Origin: a virus
Direction: 5' to 3' (one strand)
Length of the DNA stretch: 42,997 nt
Virus record (IMG/VR): IMGVR_UViG_3300006163_000008
Span: 1 to 42,997 of that record
The translations under genes and the position numbers were made by a program. Below the pieces are notes generated by a model, which saw nothing but the letters and a program-made list of their open reading frames with translations, was not told the DNA's origin and made no database searches. Positions within the stretch are counted from its first letter, which is position 1. Every line of letters begins with the position of its first letter. This document shows positions 4,643 to 41,577 of the stretch, piece after piece.

Positions 4643-5608
4643 TCACTGCACGAATCTCGGGACCGTTCGAATGAAGCGCGAAGAGAACGTCACGCTCTGC
4701 GCGTTCGACACGCTGTACCGGCTATGAAGTCCGCCGCCCGCCGCGATCGAGACGCCACGCAGCGCGCGGCTGTACGACGACATGTAGCCGCCCGCAGGCT
4801 GGTTGTAGAGGCTCATCGCCAGGCTTGAGATGCCGTTGCCGTTGATGTCGGTCAACGTCATGTAGGCGTTCGCCACTCCGGCAACGTTCGGGTAAGCCGA
4901 GCAGCCCCATTCGGTCAGGTACTCGCCGCCGCGTGGCAGATAGATGTACGGCCCGGTCAGATCGACGGCCGATCCGCTCGACGTTGACGCCGATGCGTCG
5001 ATGTCAGCTTCGATCGGCGGACCGCCTATGAACAGCCACACCGCCCACGCCGCGTTCCATGAGAACGCCCAGCGCGTAATCCCGAACCCGTACTGATTGC
5101 CGGACGGCGTGAACGTCATGATCCAGATGTCGCCATCGGCCGGGGATGCAGGTGGTGTCGTGTTGCCGTTCGGCGTGGTCGTGATCTTCGGCAGCCCGAC
5201 GTCGGCCGGAGTGATCGCGGACCACACCGCCGCACCGCCGACGCCTTTGAGCCACTGTCCGTTGACGACGGCGGGCACCGTTGCGACGGTCGTCCACTGC
5301 GTGTCGTAGTCGGTCGCCGTCTTCTTCGCGAGCAGCTGGCCGGTCGTACCGCCAGCGACGACACCTGGCCCGGTAGCGCCGGTCGGTCCTTGCGGTCCGG
5401 TTGTGCCTTGCGCTCCGGTCGCGCCGGTCGCGCCCTGCGGTCCTTGCGGACCCGTGTTCCCGATCGGTCCTTGCGCGCCTTGCGGTCCTTGCACGCCTTG
5501 CGGTCCTTGTGCACCTGTCAGTCCGGTGGGTCCTTGGATCACGAGGTCGGCCCAGCCGGTCGATGTCTTGACGCGGATCGCGCGCGGTGTGTCGATCGTC
5601 GGACTCAC
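4643..5608 (-). CDS. Collagen-like tail fibre protein
   Basis: 321 aa. GTG at 5608 forms GTGA with the stop of the preceding gene. Residues about 28-72 are Gly-X-Y repeats ([19 protein letters not shown] and onward) expected to form a trimeric collagen-like shaft. The remaining 240 residues are Trp-, Gly- and Thr-rich, with an end domain (residues about 205-321, including [19 protein letters not shown]) that looks like a C1q/TNF-like jelly-roll tip, which is an inference. The same frame is open far upstream on the minus strand, but that stretch is the shadow of the next gene. Likely host-contact fibre. Confidence 0.82.
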
Positions 5609-6951
5609 AGCGTGTGTCCTGCGAGGTCGGCCCATGTGACGTGCGTGCCGGTGCCGATCGCGATCGGCGGCGGATCGCTCGTGATCCAGATCGCGCCGAC
5701 AGGTGCGTTCGTCGGTTCGACTGCCTGCTCGTAGACGGCGAGCACGCCCGGCGCGCCCTGCGCACCTGTCGGTCCTGCCGGACCCGTTGCACCGGCGGGA
5801 CCTTGCGTGCCGGTGGCGCCCTGCGGTCCTTGCGCGCCGGTTGCGCCGGTTGCGCCTTGCGGGCCGCGCAGGCTGCCGCGCGATGTCCACGTGCTCGTGC
5901 CGGTCTTCTCGTAGTACGTGCCGCTCGCGGAGTCCAGGTACCAATCCCCGACGATGCCGGTCGCGGGCGCAGGAGCGCCGCTGCCGGTGAACCAGACCTC
6001 GCCCGGCGTACCTGCCGCACCTTGCGATCCCGTGGCGCCAGCGGGTCCCTGAGGACCTTGCGCGCCCGTTGCGCCGGTGGCGCCCTGCGGGCCGGTGGCG
6101 CCCGGCACGCCTTGCGGCCCGGCTGGTCCCTGCAGGCCGGTGTCGCCCTTCGGTCCTTGCGCGCCGGTGGCGCCCTGCGCGCCCGTTGCGCCCGGCGGTC
6201 CTTGCGCGCCCGGCGTGCCAGCTGCGCCGGTGTCGCCCTTCGGCCCGGTGCCGACGCGCGTCACCGACAGCCACGTGGACTGCGCCGCCGACGTGAGCGC
6301 CGTCGCCGTGTCGGAGTACGCCTGCAGCCCGAGCACCGTGCCTTCGTTCACGTACATCTCGCCGCCCGTGATCACCGGCATCACGGACGACTTGACGGTC
6401 GGCGTTCCCTCGATCAGTCCGTACACCTGCACGGCGGTCAGCGCAGCCACGCGCACGGCGCGCTCGCCGGTCTGTTGCGTGCCCGAGAACGCAACCGACG
6501 CGGTGACGGCGTACACGCCTGCGCTCACACAGATGATGCCGCCCGCGTTCGGCCCGCTCGTGACGCGTTGGAACGTGTCGTCGCCGTGCTGCATGATCAC
6601 GCCGGTGATCGGCACCGGCGTCCACACGTTCGCCGGAACGGTCGTGCTCGGCTGCCCGGCGAACAGCGTCAGCGTGTCGTCCGCGATGCCGCCGCCCTTC
6701 GGCGGCGCCAACGTCATCACCCACGGTGTCTCGCGCTCATCGAAGACGACGAGGCAGTCGTCGCCGCGAATCGGCAGCGCGGAGCTGGGCGACCACGGGC
6801 ACGGTCCCCATTGGATGCGCGAACCGTCGAACGCCTGCACCGTCACGAACAGGTCGTCGTCCACGGACGCAGGTGTGTTCGCGATCGTGCCGTGCACCGC
6901 GGACTGCGGCGCCGGTGGCGCGTCGGAGATCAGGTCGAGCAGCTCTGTCAT
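5605..6951 (-). CDS. Baseplate-attached fibre: OB-like domain, jelly-roll and collagen repeats
   Basis: 448 aa; ATG 6951 overlaps the hub stop (ATGA). Residues 1-70 ([19 protein letters not shown], then [14 protein letters not shown]) look like the small beta-barrel that docks proteins to the baseplate spike. Residues about 80-200 include [19 protein letters not shown], a C1q/TNF-like pattern. Two blocks of Gly-X-Y repeats follow (about 215-300 and 345-400), separated by a spacer with [17 protein letters not shown], a sequence commonly found between collagen repeats in bacterial and phage proteins. A probable trimeric side fibre; domain names are from memory of patterns, not from a search. 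Confidence 0.8.
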
Positions 6952-20458: not shown

Positions 20459-20936
20459 GATCGTCTACCTCCGCGAACGGATCGGTGTCGTCGGCTGCCG
20501 GTTCTTGCCCGTTGTCTTCGTCGGTTGCGTCGCGGAGACGCACGCTCGTGCGTCCCCACCTATCCGGGTACTGCCGCTCAAGCAGCCACGCAGCTGCCTG
20601 CCAATTCTGTGTCGCCGCCTGACTGATCAGCGCGACATTGCGTACCTCGCCTTCGCTGCGTGCACGCTGCACACGTTCGCGGAGCAGGTCGAACTGTGCG
20701 CCCTCGCGGTTGAGCCAGCGATGCAGCGTCACGCGGTCGATGCCGACCGCACGGCACGCGACGCCGATGTAGTTGCCGGTGCGCAGGATCGCGCACAGCT
20801 GCTCGACCAGCTCGTCGCTCAGCTGCAGGCGCATGCCGATGTGCGGGCCAAGATGGAACGCGCACTTGTCGCTGCCGATCATGGCGCGCTTGCGGCACTG
20901 CTCGCCCTTCGTCGTCAGCTGCGTGCACTGCGCCAT
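20421..20936 (-). CDS. Probable terminase small subunit with N-terminal zinc-binding motif and HTH
   Basis: 171 aa from ATG 20936 (shares one base with the previous TGA). Residues 3-28 have a Cys/His motif (CTQLTTKGEQC, then DKCAFHLG) that probably binds zinc. A helix-turn-helix follows (NYIGVACRAVGIDRVTLHRW, residues about 55-75), typical of small terminases that recognise the packaging site. The tail is acidic (DNGQEPAADDTDPFAEVDD). It directly precedes and overlaps terL. A gene regulator is the alternative, less likely from position. Confidence 0.82.
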   Translation of the reverse strand: MAQCTQLTTKGEQCRKRAMIGSDKCAFHLGPHIGMRLQLSDELVEQLCAILRTGNYIGVACRAVGIDRVTLHRWLNREGAQFDLLRERVQRARSEGEVRNVALISQAATQNWQAAAWLLERQYPDRWGRTSVRLRDATDEDNGQEPAADDTDPFAEVDDLAAARARRASGA

Positions 20937-21691
20937 CAGCTGCTGACCGCCATCTGGCGCACGTCGCGCCACGCGATCTTGATGTCGGGGCGTCCGTTCG
21001 ACTTGACGTACGGCGTGCAGACGCCGGGCCACAGCTCGGCCATGCGCGCCGACGCGGTGCGCTCGATTCCTTGCGCGTACCTGTCATGCAAGCCGCCCGC
21101 GTTGCTGCCGTTGCGCGGCACCGTGAAGCTGAGGTCGCGCAAGCGTGCGCTGTCGTAGCCGTGCGCGATCGTCTGCAGCGTGAAGTCGCGGTCCACCTTC
21201 AACGGCAGGCTGAGCCGGTAGTTCGCAGGCGTGTCCGTGTTGACGAGCACGCAGCAATCGCAATAGCTGCACCACGTGACACCGCCGCGGCGCGCGTTCC
21301 ACGCGTACTGCGCATACTCCAACGCGACGAGGCCGAGGCGCCCGTCGTGCGAGTCCGCCCAGCGCTCCGCACGTTCAAGCGCGTAGTCGGCGGTCACCTT
21401 CATGTTGCGGTGATGCAACGGGTCGGTGCGCCAGAACGCGGAGATGTCGTCGTCCAGGAGCCAGAACCAGTCGAGGCCGACAGCGCGCGCGTGCTCCAAC
21501 GCAGCCTGCCGCGCGAACGCAAGCCCGGCGTCGTTGCGTTCCAGCACCGCCACGTCGTACGTCGGCGCGTCGTACAGGTCGCGGTCCTGCGGCTCAACGA
21601 ACACAAGCGCGCGGAAGCCGACCTCGGCAAGCAGCTGGAACAGCGGCGCCTTCGGCCGTTGCTTGCTACACACGAACACCGGCGCGTTCAC
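20936..21691 (-). CDS. TET-associated DNA glycosyltransferase
   Basis: 251 aa; GTG 21691 overlaps the TET-gene stop (GTGA). GT-A-like fold: N-terminal strand-helix (APVFVCSKQRPKAPLFQLL), Arg/Asn-rich donor region, and the acidic triad Asp80-Asp82 in WFWLLDDDISAFW, the expected metal/nucleotide-sugar site. Later GYDSARLRDLSFTV and SNAGGLHDRY are motifs I associate with glycosyltransferases paired with phage TETs. A cluster of Cys (WCSYCDCC) lies near residue 140. Likely transfers a sugar to hydroxymethylated cytosine in phage DNA; sugar unknown. Adjacent to terminase, so modification is probably finished before packaging. Confidence 0.8.
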   Translation of the reverse strand: MNAPVFVCSKQRPKAPLFQLLAEVGFRALVFVEPQDRDLYDAPTYDVAVLERNDAGLAFARQAALEHARAVGLDWFWLLDDDISAFWRTDPLHHRNMKVTADYALERAERWADSHDGRLGLVALEYAQYAWNARRGGVTWCSYCDCCVLVNTDTPANYRLSLPLKVDRDFTLQTIAHGYDSARLRDLSFTVPRNGSNAGGLHDRYAQGIERTASARMAELWPGVCTPYVKSNGRPDIKIAWRDVRQMAVSS

Positions 21692-22509
21692 GTCGCCACC
21701 TGCGCGAACCGTGCCCGCTCACGTTCGGTGCGGCGCTGCGCGTGCAGCCGTGCGTTGTCCACGACGGGATCGCAGCGCCACATCTGTTGCAGGCTGTAGA
21801 ACACGATGCTGTAGCGCCAGCCGCTCGGCCGTGTGAACCGGAACGGCGTGACGCCGTGCAGGATCGACTGTCCGTCGAACATGAGCAGCGAGTGGTCGCG
21901 CAACGTGAAACACACGTCCAGCTCGGGGCAGACCAGATCGCCACCGGCGCACGCGTTCTTGAACACGAGCATGTTCGACCAGCATCCGGCGAAGTTGCCG
22001 CTGTCGAAGTGGTACGGCAGCTGATTGTTCCGGTTGATGATGCCGCTCGTGAACACACCGCCGCCGAGGCGCCACTCGGGCAGCACCTTGCTCACCGTCG
22101 CCTCGTGCTGCGCGTACAGCTCGCCGTGCACGCGCCGGTACCACTCTTCGACCACCGGCGCCAGCGACGCGATGGCCTCGTGCGCCTCGGGCGCTTCGCG
22201 TGCAAGCGTTGCGCGATGGCACGTCTCCTTGCCGCGGATCGCTTGCTTCGGCGCGTAGCCGAACGTGCGCGACACGCTGTACATGCCGTCCGTCCGTCCC
22301 GCCTTGCCGAAGTGAATGCTGCGCAGCGCGGCGACAACGTGCGGCAGCCGCTGGTCCAACTCGATGTAGACCGCGCACGGATGCACCTGCTTCGGCAGGA
22401 ACAGCGCGCACGAGCCGGTCAGCTTGCGCTTGACGTGGCTCGCGTTCGCAAGCATGCCGCGGTACGCGTTCGCGTCCACGTCGTGCAGCTGCACGTCAAC
22501 GTGCCGCAT
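21688..22509 (-). CDS. TET/JBP-family 2-oxoglutarate/Fe(II) DNA dioxygenase
   Basis: 273 aa. Double-stranded beta-helix dioxygenase core: iron ligands His167-x-Asp169 in LPYHFDSGNF and His218 in SILHGVTPF, and the 2-oxoglutarate-binding Arg232 in SGWRYSIVFY. The preceding GGVFTSGIINRNNQLPYH and following WSNMLVFKNACAGGDLVCPEL are the pattern of phage TET/JBP-like enzymes. Members oxidise 5-methylcytosine (or thymine, in JBP) in DNA to the hydroxymethyl base. Lies between a ParB-like gene and the glycosyltransferase. The substrate here is inferred, because no C5-methyltransferase is visible in the window. Confidence 0.88.
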   Translation of the reverse strand: MRHVDVQLHDVDANAYRGMLANASHVKRKLTGSCALFLPKQVHPCAVYIELDQRLPHVVAALRSIHFGKAGRTDGMYSVSRTFGYAPKQAIRGKETCHRATLAREAPEAHEAIASLAPVVEEWYRRVHGELYAQHEATVSKVLPEWRLGGGVFTSGIINRNNQLPYHFDSGNFAGCWSNMLVFKNACAGGDLVCPELDVCFTLRDHSLLMFDGQSILHGVTPFRFTRPSGWRYSIVFYSLQQMWRCDPVVDNARLHAQRRTERERARFAQVAT

Positions 22510-23140
22510 GCGCCGCCCACTGCACCGCGTCGGAGTACGTGTCGAGCGACTGCGCCGCCATGATCGTGTCGAGGTCGCGGATCACAGCTTCGTACGTTCC
22601 CTTGTCGTAGCTGAGCATGATGCGGAACAGGTCCGCCTCTCCGAGTGCGTACGGTCGGTTCGCCGGGTTCGTGTCCGCCTCCGCGGCTACCATCTCGCCC
22701 GGGTCCAGGTACGCGAGCAACGCCTGCACGTCTTCCTGCGAGTAGCCGATGCCTGCGAGCATGTCCGCGTCGGCCATCGGCTTGAGCAGCTCGGCAAGCA
22801 ACGCGTCGTCGTACATGCCGAGGTCCGCGAGCCGGTTGTCCGCGAGCAGGTACGCATCCACTTCGCCGTCCTGCAGGTCGGTGCGTGTGACGGCGATGTG
22901 CGTCCAACCTTCGGCTTCGGCGGCGCGCCACACGTGATGCCCGGCAACGATCGTGCCGTCGTGCTGCGCGAGCACGGGCCGCTGCTGACCGAAGCGCTGC
23001 AGCGACCGCTGGATCTCGGCTACGACCCCCTGTCGAGGGTTACGTGGGTGCGGCTGCAGGGCCGACACCGGCACGAGGGCATCCCGTAGCTCGGCGTTAC
23101 CGCGCCACACAGCGACGCCTACGGTCGTCTCTTGCATCAT
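22496..23140 (-). CDS. ParB/sulfiredoxin-like protein, modification-associated
   Basis: 214 aa. Residues about 20-110 form the ParB-like nuclease fold: VSALQPHPRNPRQGVVAEIQ, then TIVAGHHVWRAAEAEGW with the G-H-x-x-x-R motif, and AYLLADNRLADLGMYDD. The C-terminal 80 residues (LGEADLFRIMLSYDKGTYEA) lack any methyltransferase motif (no DPPY, no PCQ), although ParB domains of this type are often fused to or next to DNA methyltransferases in phages. It overlaps the TET start by 14 bp, so it is translated together with the modification genes. Two ATG codons (23140 and 23137) are possible starts. Confidence 0.85.
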   Translation of the reverse strand: MMQETTVGVAVWRGNAELRDALVPVSALQPHPRNPRQGVVAEIQRSLQRFGQQRPVLAQHDGTIVAGHHVWRAAEAEGWTHIAVTRTDLQDGEVDAYLLADNRLADLGMYDDALLAELLKPMADADMLAGIGYSQEDVQALLAYLDPGEMVAAEADTNPANRPYALGEADLFRIMLSYDKGTYEAVIRDLDTIMAAQSLDTYSDAVQWAAHAAR

Positions 23141-33057: not shown

Positions 33058-33357
33058 CTACCGCACGCTCCGCGCCCGGCGCTGCAGCTGCGCCAGCTGC
33101 CGCCGCATGGCCCGCACCTGCGAGTCCACGCCGTGCGCGCCGTCGAGCACGTTCAGCGCCTGCGTGATCTGTTCGCACGCGGCCCGCACCCGATCGGCCG
33201 CGCGCTCGCGCTCGGTGCTCTGTGCGCGCCGCGTCAGTGAGCGCTGCTCGTCAGCCGACACGGCTTCCGGTTCGTGCGCGAGCGCCTCGTACGAGCGCGG
33301 CGTGTACCCGAACTGACTGCGGCTGTGCAGCAACCGCGGCAGGTGCGTCGTCCTCAC
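33058..33357 (-). CDS. Hypothetical basic coiled-coil protein
   Basis: 99 aa from GTG 33357 (GTGA). Begins TTHLPRLLHSRSQFGYTPR, then long helices (EQRSLTRRAQSTERERAADR and VRAMRRQLAQLQRRARSVR). Basic overall; could be a DNA-associated accessory of replication. Unrecognised. Confidence 0.62.
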   Translation of the reverse strand: MRTTHLPRLLHSRSQFGYTPRSYEALAHEPEAVSADEQRSLTRRAQSTERERAADRVRAACEQITQALNVLDGAHGVDSQVRAMRRQLAQLQRRARSVR

Positions 33358-33923
33358 GCATCCTCGATGAACGGGTTGCCGCTGGCGACAGGGACACGCG
33401 GCTCCGGTGTGTGCGGCTCGGCGGCGCGCTTGCGTGCGGCGACGTGCGCGCGTGCACGTGCCTCGGCTTCCTGCTCGACCTGTTCGCCGCGTGGACGCTG
33501 CTCGTGCCAGTACGCGAGCAGCTCGGCGCGTAGCTCGGCATCACCGGCGTACGTGCGCAGCATCCCGCTGTACCCGAACAGCTCGTCCTCGACCTCGCTC
33601 TCGCGGTCGTAGTGCATTCCGGCGGCGCGCATCCACTGCCGCCCGCGCTGCAGCGCCTTCGTGCGGTCCTGCCCGCCGCTGGCGCTGACGTCGCCTCGGC
33701 CGATCGCGGCGACGGCTTCCTCGACGTGCTTCGCGAGCACGGGCCACGGCGAGTGGATCAGCCCGCTGTCGTAGCGCTCACCGACGTGCGCCATCCCCGC
33801 CGCCACGAGCATCGGGTGTCCGCTGAACACGTCGAGGATGCGTTCCTCGGTGGCTGCGCTCGGCGCGCTGCCGACGCGTTCGATGAACGGGTCGCGCATG
33901 TCGCTCCACACGTACTCGGTCAC
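33354..33923 (-). CDS. Hypothetical protein next to the replication initiator
   Basis: 189 aa from GTG 33923 (GTGA with the initiator gene). Helical: RDPFIERVGSAPSAATEERI, LVAAGMAHVGERYDSGLIHS, WPVLAKHVEEAVAAIGRGD; charged C-terminus. Directly downstream of an initiator-like gene, the position taken by helicase loaders or partners in other phages, but I see no Walker motif. Confidence 0.65.
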   Translation of the reverse strand: MTEYVWSDMRDPFIERVGSAPSAATEERILDVFSGHPMLVAAGMAHVGERYDSGLIHSPWPVLAKHVEEAVAAIGRGDVSASGGQDRTKALQRGRQWMRAAGMHYDRESEVEDELFGYSGMLRTYAGDAELRAELLAYWHEQRPRGEQVEQEAEARARAHVAARKRAAEPHTPEPRVPVASGNPFIEDA

Positions 33924-34546
33924 GGGTCCTCCTTCGCGGGTAGCTGGCTGAACGGGTCGAGTGCTTGAAGGTCGAATCCGGCAGGCTCGGCAGGCTCGGC
34001 GTAGTGCAGTACGCCTGCTTGCTTAGCCTGCTCTTGAAGTTCAGAGCGGGTCAGAGCGGGTCCCGCGCGCGTGCGCGCGAGAGCACCCGGTTCCTGGGAA
34101 CCAGCCGGGAACCCGTTGTCCACACCCGCGTGTGGTTCCGGCGGTGGTTCCGCGGTACCGGGCACTCCGGTTCCTCGGAACCTGTGGACAAGCGCTAGAA
34201 CGTCTTGCTTCCTACCGCCGACGTTGCGATGCACCTCGTTCGCGCTTGCACCCGGATGGTCCGCGAGGTACGCGGTCACGCGTTCGTCCACAGTCTCGGC
34301 GTTCAGCGCGAGGAAGTCGTGCACGCGCCACCGCCCGGTGTCGAACAGGTGCAGCAACCCGACGCGGACGAGCTTGTCGAGCGCTTTGTCGAGCTTCAAC
34401 TCGGCCAGCACCGGCAGCGTCACCACGTCCGTGTGATGCCGTGTGCAGGTCAGCAGAAGCCGCGTCCAGCGCCACCGTTCGACCTCCGTCAGCGCGAGCA
34501 GCTTCGGGTTCGTGTCGTAGCCGTCGAGCAGCTTCACGTAGCTCAT
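33920..34546 (-). CDS. Replication initiation/replisome-organiser-like protein
   Basis: 208 aa from ATG 34546 (ATGA). The N-terminal part (SYVKLLDGYDTNPKLLALTE, TRLLLTCTRHHTDVVTLPV, then DKLVRVGLLHLFDTGRWRVH) is the winged-helix start seen in many actinophage initiator proteins. A second HTH-like piece follows (DHPGASANEVHRNVGGRKQD). Residues about 119-168 are a Gly/Pro/Ala linker encoded by a repeat array that looks like the origin, as in lambda gene O. C-terminus acidic with Ala/Pro. The initiator role is inferred from this combination. Confidence 0.75.
   Translation of the reverse strand: MSYVKLLDGYDTNPKLLALTEVERWRWTRLLLTCTRHHTDVVTLPVLAELKLDKALDKLVRVGLLHLFDTGRWRVHDFLALNAETVDERVTAYLADHPGASANEVHRNVGGRKQDVLALVHRFRGTGVPGTAEPPPEPHAGVDNGFPAGSQEPGALARTRAGPALTRSELQEQAKQAGVLHYAEPAEPAGFDLQALDPFSQLPAKEDP
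34041..34191. other. Candidate origin of replication inside the initiator gene
   Basis: In 151 bp: tandem TCAGAGCGGG TCAGAGCGGG (34041-34060); two palindromes GGTTCC-TG-GGAACC (34089-34102) and GGTTCC-TC-GGAACC (34169-34182); single GGAACC at 34108; GGTTCC at 34134 and 34146; and two perfect actinobacterial DnaA boxes TTGTCCACA, at 34116-34124 (plus) and 34183-34191 (minus), facing each other. The codons translate as an unstructured linker of the initiator. No AT-rich unwinding stretch is obvious. Confidence 0.7.
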
Positions 34547-36012: not shown

Positions 36013-36518
36013 CGACACGCCCACTCGCCTCCCCTTCCGTGCGTGTTCATCCATCCGGCGGCGAGCGCGTTCGCGTACGGCGACCAGACGCTGAACCGGC
36101 TGTACGGCGTCGAGCGCCACGTGCTCGGCAGGAACTGATAGAGGCCGGACGCGCCGGACGGGTTCTGCGCGTACGGGTTCAGGTGGCTCTCGCAGCCTGC
36201 GCGCCGCCACAGCGTCTCGCAGCTTCCGTAGGCGACGCAGGCAAGGTTGATCGCTTCGGCGGTGCTGTCTGCGTGCGCCAGCGTCCGCGTCAGCTGCTTC
36301 ACGCGCCGGTGCGCGTTCGTGTACCGCAGCCACATGCGCCGGTAGCGTCCGTGCTCCTGCCGGTAGCGCAGCTGCAGCCGCTGCTCGCGGGCCGTGTGTT
36401 CCTCCTCGTGCACGATCGGCTCGGTGCGGGTGCGCTCGGGTGCGCCACGCACGCCGCGCGCCCAGAGGATGAGCACGATCAGCAGCGCGATCACGGTCAC
36501 CCACAGCACGGCGCGCAT
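36009..36518 (-). CDS. Membrane-anchored lytic transglycosylase/lysozyme-like protein
   Basis: 169 aa from ATG 36518. N-terminal hydrophobic segment (AVLWVTVIALLIVLILWARG, residues 3-22) acts as an uncleaved signal or anchor. A charged stalk (30-90) follows. The C-terminal domain has RRAGCESHLNPYAQNPSGA (Glu in CESH as likely catalytic acid) and SGLYQFLPSTWRSTPYSRF, then AGWMNTHGRGGEWAC. This is the Rpf/transglycosylase-like fold with an outside-facing active site. Being in the early operon, it is not the lysis enzyme; exclusion of superinfecting phage or envelope remodelling are guesses. Confidence 0.82.
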   Translation of the reverse strand: MRAVLWVTVIALLIVLILWARGVRGAPERTRTEPIVHEEEHTAREQRLQLRYRQEHGRYRRMWLRYTNAHRRVKQLTRTLAHADSTAEAINLACVAYGSCETLWRRAGCESHLNPYAQNPSGASGLYQFLPSTWRSTPYSRFSVWSPYANALAAGWMNTHGRGGEWACR

Positions 36519-37768
36519 CAGCCTGCCGCCGCGTTGACCGCGTTCTGCTTCTCGACCAGCTTGTCGATCAGCCACGACGCCTCGGCACGTGTCAGGTCGT
36601 CACGCAGCGGCGACCAGTGCAGCACGTCGTTCTCGTCGCGCCCGCCGAGCCGCTTGACCAGCTCACCGACGTCGCACTCACGCAGGTTCTGCGCAATGGC
36701 AAGCCACAGCCCGGCTGTCGTGATGTGCCCGCCGCGGTCGCGCAGCTGCCCGACGAGTACATTCAGCTTGTCGTACTGCGCCTCCGTGCGCAGCTTCGTC
36801 TGCCGTTCCTCCGTGTACGTGCCCGCGTCCGGGTCGGGTGCCAGGTCGTCGGCGGGCGCCTGCGGCATCGGTGCCGGGTCGAACGCCGGTGTCACCACCG
36901 GCGCCGCCGCCCGGGCGCCGCCGGGCATGCTCGACGTCTGAGCGCCTGTAACGGCGTCTAAGGCGCTGCGGGCGTCTGCCATGCTGGCAGCCGCGGCAGG
37001 GGACGGCTCGGGCACAGCGGGTCGCTCAAGGACGCCGGTGACCGCTACCGCCGGGGACGGGCTGGCGCCCTGCAGCTGGGCGCCGTTGCCGGGCTGCGGG
37101 CTGGGCGGCAGCCGCCGGTGCGCGGCACCACCGGCGGCGAGGTTGCCGTAGCCGACGTCCAGGTCCAGCGTCGGCACCACGTAGCGCACGACCTGTCCTT
37201 CCTTGATGCCGCGGCGCTGGTCGAGCACGAGCCGGGCCGGTACGAACGGCGCGCCGCCGCCGACCGTCGCGACGAACTGCATCATCGTCGGCAGCTCGTG
37301 CGCGGCGTTCGCGCCGCGCGTGATCAGCCGCCAGCCGAGCACGGTGTCCAGCTCGGGCAGCGCGACGACGAGGCGCGTGTAGATGTCGCAGCGGTCGATG
37401 CCTTCGGCGTTGCAGATGCACGGCCCGCCGCTCAGCTCTTCGTCCATGCCGTCGCACATGCGCAGCCGTTGCGTCGCGCCTTCCCACAACTCGTACGTCT
37501 GGCGCAGGCTGTAGTGCGGCATCACGAGCACGGGCAGCACCGGCGCGTCGGTGTACAGCTGCCACTCGTCGCCGTTCGGTCCCTTCCAGGCGGACGGCCT
37601 ACCGCCGCCGTATAGCCCGGACGCTTGCTCAAGCAGCTGCTTGCGCGGCGAGGTCAGCCGGAACGATTCCAGCTTGCGCCCGGGCGCCTTCGGTTGCTTC
37701 TCGCCGCCAACGCGGATGGCACCGACGAGCGCGAGCCGCCGCTGCAACTCAATGATCGGTGTCGGCAT
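36518..37768 (-). CDS. Probable recombination directionality factor (phiC31 gp3-like)
   Basis: 416 aa. The N-terminal 215 residues carry the gp3-like pattern: TPIIELQRRLALVGAIRVG, RKLESFRLTSPRKQLLEQAS, GLYGGGRPSAWKGPNGDEWQ, YELWEGATQRLRMCDG and PCICNAEGIDRCDIYTRL, then WRLITRGANAAHELPTMMQF. A proline/alanine linker (about 220-320) leads to an extra helical domain (LRTEAQYDKLNVLVGQLRDR, LTRAEASWLIDKLVEKQNAV) also seen at the ends of phage recombination proteins. Large serine integrases need such a factor for excision, and one is present 2 kb away. A DNA-binding hydrolase is the alternative. Confidence 0.75.
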   Translation of the reverse strand: MPTPIIELQRRLALVGAIRVGGEKQPKAPGRKLESFRLTSPRKQLLEQASGLYGGGRPSAWKGPNGDEWQLYTDAPVLPVLVMPHYSLRQTYELWEGATQRLRMCDGMDEELSGGPCICNAEGIDRCDIYTRLVVALPELDTVLGWRLITRGANAAHELPTMMQFVATVGGGAPFVPARLVLDQRRGIKEGQVVRYVVPTLDLDVGYGNLAAGGAAHRRLPPSPQPGNGAQLQGASPSPAVAVTGVLERPAVPEPSPAAAASMADARSALDAVTGAQTSSMPGGARAAAPVVTPAFDPAPMPQAPADDLAPDPDAGTYTEERQTKLRTEAQYDKLNVLVGQLRDRGGHITTAGLWLAIAQNLRECDVGELVKRLGGRDENDVLHWSPLRDDLTRAEASWLIDKLVEKQNAVNAAAG

Positions 37769-38850: not shown

Positions 38851-39668
38851 GCCGTCACCGGGTCCGGATCGGGCAGCACCGGGCCGAACAGATCGTGCGC
38901 GCCGCGAACGCGGAACGCGGCCACGCGCAGCACCGCCAGCCACGTCTGCCAGGTGTCCTCGGTGATTCGCACTGGCACCGCGAAGCAGTCTTCCGGGGAC
39001 ACCACGATGCAGATCGCACCGTCCACTTCGGGCAACGGCTCGTGTGGCACGTCCTGGTCGTAGAGGTAGTACCGCTGGCCGGACGCGTAGCGCTGCTCGC
39101 TGAGCACGCCGACCTCGGGGCAGCGGCTGTACGCACACAGCTGCAGCGCAACCTCGGGGAACGGCGGGCGCTGCTTCGGTTTGCCTCCCGCGGTAAGCGC
39201 GTACGGCCCGTGCTCGGTCGTCTTCACGTCGTAGAGCAACCGGCGCCCGTACAAGCGCATGATCCCGTCGAGCGTGCCCGCGTACTGCCACTGCGGGTTG
39301 TACACGGGTGCTTCGGCCATCAGGAACTCTGGGCGGTGCTTCTCAGCCCAGCCGATGAACTGCTCCGCGTACGGCAGATGCTGCGCGTCCATCGGCGGTA
39401 GCGACTGGCCGAGCGCGAACGCTTCGATCGCAGTGTGCGCGGCGGTGCCGCGTCCCTTCGCAAGACCGCTCGCGCGGTTGGACGCTTCGCGCACGTACTT
39501 GATCGCGGCTTCGTCGCCGTCTTCGCGTCTCATCCGCTGCACGTAGTCGCTGCGCAGCACTCCACACTCGGCCGCGTGGTTCAGCTTCCAGTAGATCAGG
39601 CCGGGTCCTTCGCCCAGCGCCAACTTCGTGAGCATCGTCACCGACCAGAAGCGCAGCGGCTCAGCCAT
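38847..39668 (-). CDS. PD-(D/E)xK exonuclease, RecB/Cas4-like
   Basis: 273 aa from ATG 39668. Opening AEPLRFWSVTMLTKLALGEG, then GRGTAAHTAIEAFALGQS (motif with His for this family), YAGTLDGIMRLYGRRLLYDV and KTTE: G-x-L-D...Y-D-V-K-T, the catalytic Asp/Asp/Lys set. A Q-L-x-x-Y helix (VALQLCAYSRC) follows as in RecB-type nucleases. Likely a recombination or DNA-degradation enzyme used in early phage replication. Confidence 0.85.
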   Translation of the reverse strand: MAEPLRFWSVTMLTKLALGEGPGLIYWKLNHAAECGVLRSDYVQRMRREDGDEAAIKYVREASNRASGLAKGRGTAAHTAIEAFALGQSLPPMDAQHLPYAEQFIGWAEKHRPEFLMAEAPVYNPQWQYAGTLDGIMRLYGRRLLYDVKTTEHGPYALTAGGKPKQRPPFPEVALQLCAYSRCPEVGVLSEQRYASGQRYYLYDQDVPHEPLPEVDGAICIVVSPEDCFAVPVRITEDTWQTWLAVLRVAAFRVRGAHDLFGPVLPDPDPVTA

Positions 39669-39822
39669 GCCAGTCCCCGAAGCCCCATTCGTCCGGGCCG
39701 AGCACGCGCACGCAGCCGCTGCGCGGGTGCAGCTGCTTGCGCACGCGCTCATGCTCCGCGCGCCGCCGCCGCACGGGATCACGCAGAACCTGCGCAGCGC
39801 CCGTTACGGCAGGCTCGCCCAC
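39661..39822 (-). CDS. Small hypothetical protein, first gene of the early operon
   Basis: 53 aa if started at GTG 39822; the start is uncertain. The C-terminal half looks real (RAEHERVRKQLHPRSGCVRV, LGPDEWGFGDWHG) and overlaps the next start by 8 bp. Basic helical first half. No family. Confidence 0.45.
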   Translation of the reverse strand: MGEPAVTGAAQVLRDPVRRRRAEHERVRKQLHPRSGCVRVLGPDEWGFGDWHG

Positions 39823-39855
39823 GGCGGCAGCGGCGGACTGGTTCAGCTGTGTTGT

Positions 39856-39881
39856 ACAACCCGCATGGCTGCGCGGGTTGT
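39856..39881. repeat. Inverted repeat in the divergent int/early control region
   Basis: ACAACCCGC (39856-39864) and GCGGGTTGT (39873-39881), perfect 9-bp arms around 8 bases. Lies between the first gene of the leftward operon (start about 39822) and the attP candidate, in the 159-bp gap before the integrase gene. A regulatory operator or transcript hairpin are both possible. Confidence 0.5.
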
Positions 39882-39885
39882 GGGC

Positions 39886-39933
39886 GTTACTACAGTCGCA
39901 CCCTGCCGTTGCGCGGGGTTCCACTGTGGTAAC
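39886..39933. other. Candidate attP site for the serine integrase
   Basis: 48-bp imperfect dyad: GTTACTACAGT (39886-39896) against ACTGTGGTAAC (39923-39933), 10 of 11 matching, with a further 7 of 13 paired positions inside, centred on TT at 39909-39910. A dyad of about 50 bp with a non-palindromic central dinucleotide beside the integrase gene is the known architecture of large serine recombinase attP sites. An operator for the integrase promoter is the alternative. Centre and edges are by eye. Confidence 0.5.
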
Positions 39934-39938
39934 TTGCC

Positions 39939-39981
39939 GCCGGGCAATCCCGCCCGGCACACACGTAGGAGGCAAGGACTC
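39939..39981 (+). promoter_or_regulatory. Repeated 5' leader, copy 4, before the integrase gene
   Basis: Hairpin GCCGGGC / GCCCGGC (39939-39945, 39952-39958) containing GGCAATCCCGCC, then ACACACGTAGGAGGCAAGG and ATG 39982. Nearly the same as the leader inside 24476-24516. Suggests integrase and the plus-strand operon share a regulatory signal. Confidence 0.55.
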
Positions 39982-41577
39982 ATGGCTACAACCCGCAAGC
40001 GCAAGCGCAGCAACGTGATCAACCTGCACTTGCCGTTCGTCATCTACCTGCGCGTCTCGCGCATCGGTGGCCGCAGCGCCCGCGACGGCTACATCAGCAA
40101 GCAGCTGCAGCGGCGCGAGTGCGAGCGGCTCGCGGCGCAGCACGGCGTCAAGGTGTACGGCGTCTTCATCGAAGAGAACCTGTCCGGCACGAGCTTGGAG
40201 CGGCCGAAGTTCCAGGCGGCGCTGCAGCTTGTGCGCGACGGCGTGGTCGGCGGCATCATCGTGTACACGCTCGACCGCTTCTCGCGTGACACGTCGGACG
40301 GGCTGACGCTGCTCAAGGACATCGAGGCGCACGGCGGATCGCTCTTCTGCGGCGACGGCGAGGTCACGTGCCGCACCGCTGACGGCGAGATGATGGCGAC
40401 GGCGCGGTTCATGGTCGCCGCCCGCGAGGTCGGTGGCAAGCGCGAAGGCTTCGCCGCTACTGTCGAGAACGCAGTGGCACGCGAGGGACGGCATCTCGGT
40501 GTTCCGTACGGCTACCGGCGCGGCAGCTGGAAGGGACGCGAGCGGGTGCTCGTAGCGCACCCGGACGAGGCGCCGGTGGTCGAGCGCATGTTCACGCTGC
40601 GCAAGGCGGGCCACGGTTGGAACGCGATCGCGAAGCTGCTGAACGAGGACGGCATCCAGCCGCGTGCGTTCCGGCGCGCGCTCAAGGACGACGACGGCGA
40701 CCGGACCGACGAGTGGCAGCTGATCCAGGGCCAGTGGCGCGGCAAGACGGTGCGCGAGATCGTGAAGACGCGCACGTACCTCGGGCACGCCTGGAACGGC
40801 GACCACGAGCACACGAACGCGCATCAGCCGCTCGTGTCGAAGAAGCTGTGGCAGGACGCGAACAGCATCCGCACGACGAAGCCGACGCGCAACGCTGACG
40901 GCTACCTGCTCACCGGCCTCGTCCGCTGCGCCAGCTGCGGATACGCGATGGTGCACACGGCGCGATCGAACCCGAACGGCGGGCGCCGCCGGTACTACGT
41001 CTGCCGCAGCCAGAACGCTCAGCCGTGTACGCACCCGACGAGCGTGCCAGCACCGGCGGTCGAGCAACACGTGGACGACGCGATGCTTGCCGCGGCGAAG
41101 CAGCTGCGCAAGCTGCGGCCCGTGCAGGACGACAGCGCGCTTGCCGCCGCGGAAGCGGCGCTGCTCGACGCCGAGGCCGAGTACGAGGCGGCGCTGGATC
41201 GGCTCGACAAGACCACCGGCGCAAGTAAGGCGCAGCGGCGCGTGGTCGAGCGGAACCACGACGCGAAGCTGGCGCAGCTGAACGACGCGGAGCACGCACA
41301 CGATCAGGCGCTGCAGGCGTCGCGGTCGCTGTCGCTGCCCATCAGCATCGCGGATCTGGCACAGAGGTACCCGACGATGCCGGTGGTCGAGCGGCGGCAC
41401 CTAATCAGCCTGATGTTCGCGTGTGTTGCGGTGCGCCCTGCGGCCAGCTACGGCGAGGCGATCGAGGCGCGCGCGCAGCTCGTCGTCAATGGTTCGGTCC
41501 CCGCCAGCGTCGGCGTCATCGCCTTCGTCGCCGCGCTCGACTGGAACCCAACGGGTGCCGGGATGCGCGCGGCCTAG
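39982..41577 (+). CDS. Large serine recombinase (phage integrase)
   Basis: 531 aa. Catalytic domain: IYLRVSR with nucleophile Ser26, then EENLSGTSLERPKF, and the VYTLDRFSRDTSDGL motif. Recombinase domain: HLGVPYGYRRGSWKGRE, ERMFTLRKAGHGWNAIAKLL. Zinc ribbon: Cys316-x2-Cys319 in VRCASCGYAMVHT, with YYVCRSQNAQPC later. Coiled coil about 385-440 (AAAEAALLDAEAEYEAALDR). Integrates phage DNA at an attB site in the host and, with the gp3-like factor, excises it. Strong Shine-Dalgarno (TAGGAGGC). The only integrase in the window. Confidence 0.96.
   Translation: MATTRKRKRSNVINLHLPFVIYLRVSRIGGRSARDGYISKQLQRRECERLAAQHGVKVYGVFIEENLSGTSLERPKFQAALQLVRDGVVGGIIVYTLDRFSRDTSDGLTLLKDIEAHGGSLFCGDGEVTCRTADGEMMATARFMVAAREVGGKREGFAATVENAVAREGRHLGVPYGYRRGSWKGRERVLVAHPDEAPVVERMFTLRKAGHGWNAIAKLLNEDGIQPRAFRRALKDDDGDRTDEWQLIQGQWRGKTVREIVKTRTYLGHAWNGDHEHTNAHQPLVSKKLWQDANSIRTTKPTRNADGYLLTGLVRCASCGYAMVHTARSNPNGGRRRYYVCRSQNAQPCTHPTSVPAPAVEQHVDDAMLAAAKQLRKLRPVQDDSALAAAEAALLDAEAEYEAALDRLDKTTGASKAQRRVVERNHDAKLAQLNDAEHAHDQALQASRSLSLPISIADLAQRYPTMPVVERRHLISLMFACVAVRPAASYGEAIEARAQLVVNGSVPASVGVIAFVAALDWNPTGAGMRAA

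Follow-up and report, generated by a model that had tools for sequence, protein, structure and literature searches.

A 151-base cluster of repeats (34041-34191) within the gene for a replication initiator very probably marks the replication start of an actinobacterial virus. The cluster was found in a 42,997-base stretch of viral DNA, called here the window, which is the virus record IMGVR_UViG_3300006163_000008 (IMG/VR) from position 1 to 42,997. From its sequence we regard the block, with considerable confidence, as the cis-acting theta origin of a temperate actinobacteriophage, nested in its own initiator gene and acting by the mechanism proposed below. The preliminary description had placed an origin inside the initiator gene, and this placement is well supported by the homology of the initiator, by the DNA-level repeats in the linker-coding part of the gene, both in the window and in most sampled homologues, and by a scan of plain DNA that returned to the same genes. 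Members of the family to which the window gene belongs are annotated as replication initiators and have repeats at the same place.

The window has a GC content of 68% and encodes a terminase, portal, major head protein, exonuclease, large serine-type integrase and Gp3-like recombination directionality factor; the directionality factor gene lies close to the integrase gene (36518-37768 and 39628-41577). Homologues of the directionality factor were found mainly in Streptomyces phages, and the host of the virus is therefore likely an actinobacterium. The features of the initiator locus, with the basis for each assignment, are as follows.

33354..33923, minus strand: adjoining gene, 189 aa (putative function, from position only)
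33920..34546, minus strand: 208-aa replication initiator gene containing the candidate origin (PHROG 3926 match and family HMM)
33981..34031, minus strand: imperfect 18-bp stem-loop, downstream of the tandem repeat (DNA folding)
34041-34060: tandem 10-mer TCAGAGCGGG, two copies
34041..34061, minus strand: the tandem 10-mer in its coding-strand reading, (ACCCGCTCTG)x2 (position and sequence)
34064..34079, no strand assigned: 16-bp alternating CG run between the iterons and the tandem repeat (sequence; 7-bp arms)
34089..34182, no strand assigned: iteron array of seven GGTTCC/GGAACC in both orientations (starts 34089, 34097, 34108, 34134, 34146, 34169 and 34177)
34116..34124, plus strand: exact DnaA box TTGTCCACA (sequence)
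34183..34191, minus strand: exact DnaA box TTGTCCACA (sequence)
34289..34546, minus strand: coding part for the N-terminal winged-helix domain, residues 1-86 (PHROG match span, AlphaFold2 model and PDB matches)

The 208-aa product was matched over residues 1-86 by PHROG 3926 (replication initiation protein; E 1.3e-7) and by PHROG 2447 (E 0.02), and a family HMM tied its gene to actinophage genes annotated "replication initiation protein" or "RepA-like replication initiator". One homologue, L045, matched PHROG 3926 at E 1e-19. The AlphaFold2 model showed a winged-helix topology with pLDDT of 77-91 across residues 11-80, followed by a linker (residues 111-163) modelled as disordered (pLDDT < 50); the iteron array encodes residues 119-153, i.e., part of this linker. 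Alignment of the N-terminal domain with VIA-align gave winged-helix matches in the PDB at Z of about 6-7, among them the RepA_N N-domain structures 4pql, 4pt7, 4pta and 5kbj (Z about 6, 77 residues), a resemblance that is unspecific by the tool's own scale, a Z of about 6 being in the range of common winged helices. Foldseek with the initiator model gave no match at E <= 0.001 against the PDB and one against BFVD, a Gordonia phage HTH protein; Pfam RepA_N did not match the 208-aa product at E <= 1. The adjoining 189-aa gene had no PHROG or Pfam match. It occupies the position that, in the cultured relatives prophiT36-2a, Appa, 1191A and HufflyPuff, is taken by a helicase loader or small gene, which is followed there by DnaB.

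The tandem 10-mer, the seven hexamers and the two perfect, oppositely oriented DnaA boxes of the preliminary description were all present where it had located them, and two of its details needed adjustment. The two "14-bp palindromes" (34089-34102 and 34169-34182) are pairs of inverted hexamers whose 2-bp centre is not palindromic, and the DnaA boxes, said to bracket most of the array, do enclose hexamers, but only four of the seven. Throughout the window GGTTCC/GGAACC occurred 25 times against 13.6 expected, and the two exact copies of TTGTCCACA at 34116-34124 and 34183-34191 were the only ones. Folding of the DNA from 33975 to 34115 gave a z of -2.35 for the whole stretch, with 5 of 200 shuffles equally good.

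Within 34041-34191 there were 29 direct and 27 inverted 6-mer repeat pairs, compared with 5.5 and 6.6 in dinucleotide shuffles, and none of 2000 shuffles scored as high. The densest 140 nt of the initiator gene held 38 pairs; synonymous-codon shuffles, which preserve both the protein and the codon use, held a mean of 16.8 (sd 4.0), and 0 of 300 were as high. The hexamers numbered seven in the gene against 1.9 in synonymous shuffles, occupied all three codon phases, and encoded RFR, GFP, GS, GT, AEP, PEP and QEP. A test for a dominant repeat behind the domain gave P 0.01 for the window (7 x GGAACC), and a stricter post-hoc test for any 6-mer occurring seven times in the initiator gene gave only P 0.037. 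The use of three codon phases, together with the excess over synonymous-codon shuffles, argues for selection acting on the DNA and not on the protein; the linker repeats are real and are selected at the DNA level. A rival explanation is that the repeats simply arise from GC-rich base composition or from the low complexity of a Gly/Pro/Ala linker. The linker is indeed biased in composition, and other places in the window are more repetitive than the block: coding tandem repeats near 5.4 and 6.1 kb, likewise GC-rich, score higher. That explanation is contradicted by the codon-preserving null, in which no shuffle reached the observed density, and by the differing peptides that the hexamers encode in three phases, and we consider it highly improbable.

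The window initiator (P0001) was remote from all other family members (best domain match 28 bits); direct searches of viral contigs, genome contigs and phages found no close relatives of it, and tblastn with P0001 in phages found none. Relatives were reached via the portal protein and the recombination-directionality-like gene. Loss of the repeats in relatives keeping the gene had been named beforehand as what would speak against an origin; G005, the one related phage found to keep the gene (reached through its portal gene), has it as a homologue 30% identical to the window initiator and has repeats at the same place, of another sequence: eight CGTGAC instead of GGAACC, followed by a CG run, CCCGTCCCGTCCCC and a hairpin with 10-bp arms. 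The order of the portal and initiator genes in G005 (L028/L045) was consistent with circular permutation relative to the window. A CG run like that of the window occupies the same place in L045 and L094. The HMM connected five further phage genes to the initiator family, and tblastn with one family member found related initiators in 445 phage records, mostly of Mycobacterium and Gordonia phages; 19 annotated family members were examined. A dominant 6-mer behind the domain (P <= 0.05) was present in 65 of 114 non-redundant members, against 5.7 expected. Initiator domains were more alike between members sharing an iteron (permutation P 0.0005; P 0.003 for pairs below 45% identity), which is expected if the domain reads the repeat. 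No clear array was seen in SF3, VWB, L093, HufflyPuff or Zaheer, the first three forming a sub-branch in which the gene is kept without clear repeats. Phages B3, Dori and Sonali have short initiators that stop after 121-129 aa, and comparable short repeats stand in the non-coding gap just downstream, at the following loci.

L106, 1866-2056: short-initiator locus
L110, 1872-2149: short-initiator locus
L113, 1890-2080: short-initiator locus

Several candidates were set aside. The contigs closest at the directionality-like gene (L042, L043 and L044) had no family initiator and apparently carried other replication genes; L004, with an identical portal, would by its coordinates, unaligned, end near window base 33250, before the block; and a broad alignment of seven members was so diverse that a locus search could not be based on it. 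No plasmid relatives of the initiator were found.

Behind the repeats, family members often carry a C-rich tandem tract of the form (CCCNN)n, e.g., (CCCGA)n or (CCCGT)n; on the other strand this becomes (GGGTC)n, which is a G-quadruplex motif. A tract behind the domain was present in 17 of the 26 members found by protein search and in 17 of 422 control coding segments (Fisher 2e-15); for four spaced C-runs the counts were 14 of 26 and 10 of 422. A plain-DNA scan of IMG/VR with (CCCGA)4 gave a sample of 80 loci among the matches listed, in which 56 had an initiator domain, and in 55 the tract lay 34-316 nt behind it; about 30% of the tract-bearing loci among the matches listed were without an initiator match, some having two or three tracts. 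With (CCCGT)4, the tract closely followed an initiator domain in 51 of 80 loci. A control with the sequence reversed, (CCCAG)n, gave 5 of 38 loci with an initiator, and the exact tract unit thus matters less than the spacing of the C-runs. No initiator domain was matched in contigs L132, L141, L159, L165, L187 and L192, each of which had two or three (CCCGA)4 tracts; this may represent another use of the tract, or it could represent an initiator that was not recognised. Seven and five CCCGA-tract matches were also seen on the Pseudonocardia plasmids NZ_CP012185.1 and NZ_CP012182.1, respectively, with no annotated gene under the best match.

About a third of the tract-bearing members had a hairpin in which the loop was conserved and the stem sequences varied freely. 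Hairpins with arms of at least 7 followed the tract in 40% of 88 cases, as against 6% of control segments, and a C(TNAC)G-type loop with at least 4 pairs was seen in 30 members, these hairpin counts coming mostly from members found by their tract; among the 26 protein-found members only 3 had the conserved-loop hairpin, compared with 0.5% of control segments. All four Watson-Crick types occurred in the stems, and at pairs 5-8 there were 99 Watson-Crick, 0 G-T and 21 other cells, so that a DNA hairpin fits better than an RNA one. The tract and hairpin might act in the mRNA, e.g., as a Rho loading site or as a regulatory stem-loop of the initiator message, a reading suited by the finding that the C-rich strand was the coding strand in 54 of the 55 initiator-linked (CCCGA)4 loci among the matches listed. 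The stems, with four pair types and no sign of tolerated G-U, speak against it, as does the tie between tract and initiator where the gene is short and the tract non-coding (L119, L183, L193 and B3), and we judge an action in mRNA unlikely.

The window itself has (ACCCGCTCTG)x2 at the right place, read on the coding strand as ACCCG-CTCTG-ACCCG-CTCTG, and we propose from its sequence and position that this tandem 10-mer is a degenerate form of the family tract, the equation resting on those two features because the 10-mer fails the strict tandem and four-C-run tests. A canonical G-quadruplex motif is absent from the window origin, and the conserved-loop C(TNAC)G-type hairpin is absent from the window; the imperfect stem-loop at 33981..34031 is a possible, weak counterpart, weak because it is without the conserved loop. 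A broader reading, to which we give about even chances, is that an apparently undescribed origin module is widespread among actinobacteriophages and that the window holds a divergent version of it. The parts of the module would be iterons particular to each initiator; a (CCCNN)n tract with a strand bias, potentially able to fold into a G-quadruplex on its opposite strand; and a hairpin of cruciform type in which the loop is conserved and the stems vary freely, all encoded in the initiator linker or placed just behind it. The origin would be kept open by the C-rich tract in place of an AT-rich element, and the window version would have host DnaA boxes in addition. A published description of the tract and hairpin anatomy was not found in the literature searched and may exist elsewhere; these parts of the family anatomy are apparently undescribed. 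The replication origins of most actinophages are unmapped, and the anatomy names, for many cultured phages, a candidate origin segment of a few hundred bases; it also raises the question of how a GC-rich origin opens and what role the C-rich tract and the conserved-loop hairpin have.

A different account would make the repeats operators by which the winged-helix protein controls its own operon, with replication starting elsewhere. The winged helix is generic and also resembles transcription regulators, with a weak PHROG 1687 MarR match of the 208-aa product and with IclR and DtxR folds among the structural resemblances of the N-terminal domain. Against this, the sites are some 350-460 nt into the gene instead of at a promoter, the loader and DnaB neighbours, like the family annotation, point to replication, and a C-rich tract with a hairpin is not operator-like; we think it quite unlikely that the repeats are operators. 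Analysis of GC skew, a check the preliminary description had suggested, showed no turn at 34 kb and no clear origin signal, a result of little weight for a mosaic phage.

For the origin reading we suggest the following mechanism by analogy with SPP1 and pSK41. The N-terminal winged-helix domain would bind the GGTTCC/GGAACC iterons encoded in its own disordered linker, and binding would open the flanking DNA on the side of the CG run, the tandem repeat and the stem-loop. The 208-aa protein or its downstream neighbour would then load a DnaB helicase on the exposed strand. As the window has no recognised DnaB gene, the helicase probably comes from the host, and host DnaA may assist through the two DnaA boxes.

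The layout of an origin inside the initiator gene is already known from lambda O, SPP1 gene 38 and plasmid pSK41. In lambda ori, which PMC7157519 also cites, the iterons lie inside gene O, between the DNA-binding and partner-binding domains. The parallel with lambda drawn in the preliminary description holds for this layout; no homology to lambda O was detected, the window hexamers are shorter than the lambda iterons, and lambda has an AT-rich segment where the window's family has the C-rich tract. The closer match is the rep gene of the Staphylococcus plasmid pSK41, whose product has a winged-helix domain, about 120 residues long, at its N terminus; this domain binds sites in mid-gene, and the origin encodes the linker (PMC5703833). 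As in pSK41-type RepA_N replicons, the window array lies in the linker-coding part behind a winged-helix domain; unlike pSK41, the window gene is without a Pfam RepA_N match and belongs to a phage and not a plasmid, its C-terminal part is not comparable, and there are short inverted hexamers, DnaA boxes and, in its family, the C-rich tract. SPP1 oriL likewise has direct repeats bound by the initiator inside the initiator gene 38, with a loader and a DnaB-type helicase encoded nearby (PMC6316719); SPP1 differs in having an AT-rich unwinding element and a second origin, oriR, whereas the window has neither a recognised DnaB gene nor an AT-rich element. The RepA phages Miko, Rachaly and Jeeves of Mycobacterium are comparable as actinophages with a helix-turn-helix initiator; the authors of their study expect the ori within or adjoining repA and found no repeats there (PMC7157519). 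Miko RepA was not matched to the initiator family by the family HMM or phmmer at E <= 100, and, unlike the window's family, it is without the C-rich tract.

The preliminary description had also suggested a mixed mechanism of host DnaA plus phage initiator. Its two exact boxes stand: two exact DnaA boxes within the 330-nt linker region were obtained in 0 of 20000 shuffles, and two anywhere in the window had P 0.02. In the family, exact boxes numbered five, in 4 of 69 non-redundant regions, against 0.03 expected, and eight against 3.5 expected when one mismatch was allowed; they are enriched but rare, and are not a family rule. Given exact boxes in just 4 of 69 regions, co-use of host DnaA is possible and unproven, and we suggest only tentatively, with somewhat less than even confidence, that host DnaA is a helper at the window origin. 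The two TTGTCCACA sites could instead be extra sites for the phage initiator, the origin being otherwise as proposed. The DnaA-box core GTGGACA is the iteron, and main repeat, of another initiator class of the same family (Geralt, GMA1 and relatives), and 65 of the 69 regions are without an exact box. Yet both window copies are the exact 9-mer, for which shuffles of the region give an expectation of zero; three other members, whose repeats differ, also have exact TTATCCACA; and GTGGACA is not a repeat in the members closest to P0001. We hold the extra-site explanation to be plausible, at a little under even chances.

Elsewhere in the window, a minus-strand ORF carries, at 5381-6243, dense collagen-like coding tandem repeats with periods of 9, 18, 45 and 90 nt, the strongest repeat signal of the window, and is probably a tail-fibre gene. 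Glucosyltransferase-like, queuine tRNA-ribosyltransferase-like and ParB-like genes stand in a row at 20936-23140, adjoining the terminase, and possibly have a role in DNA modification.
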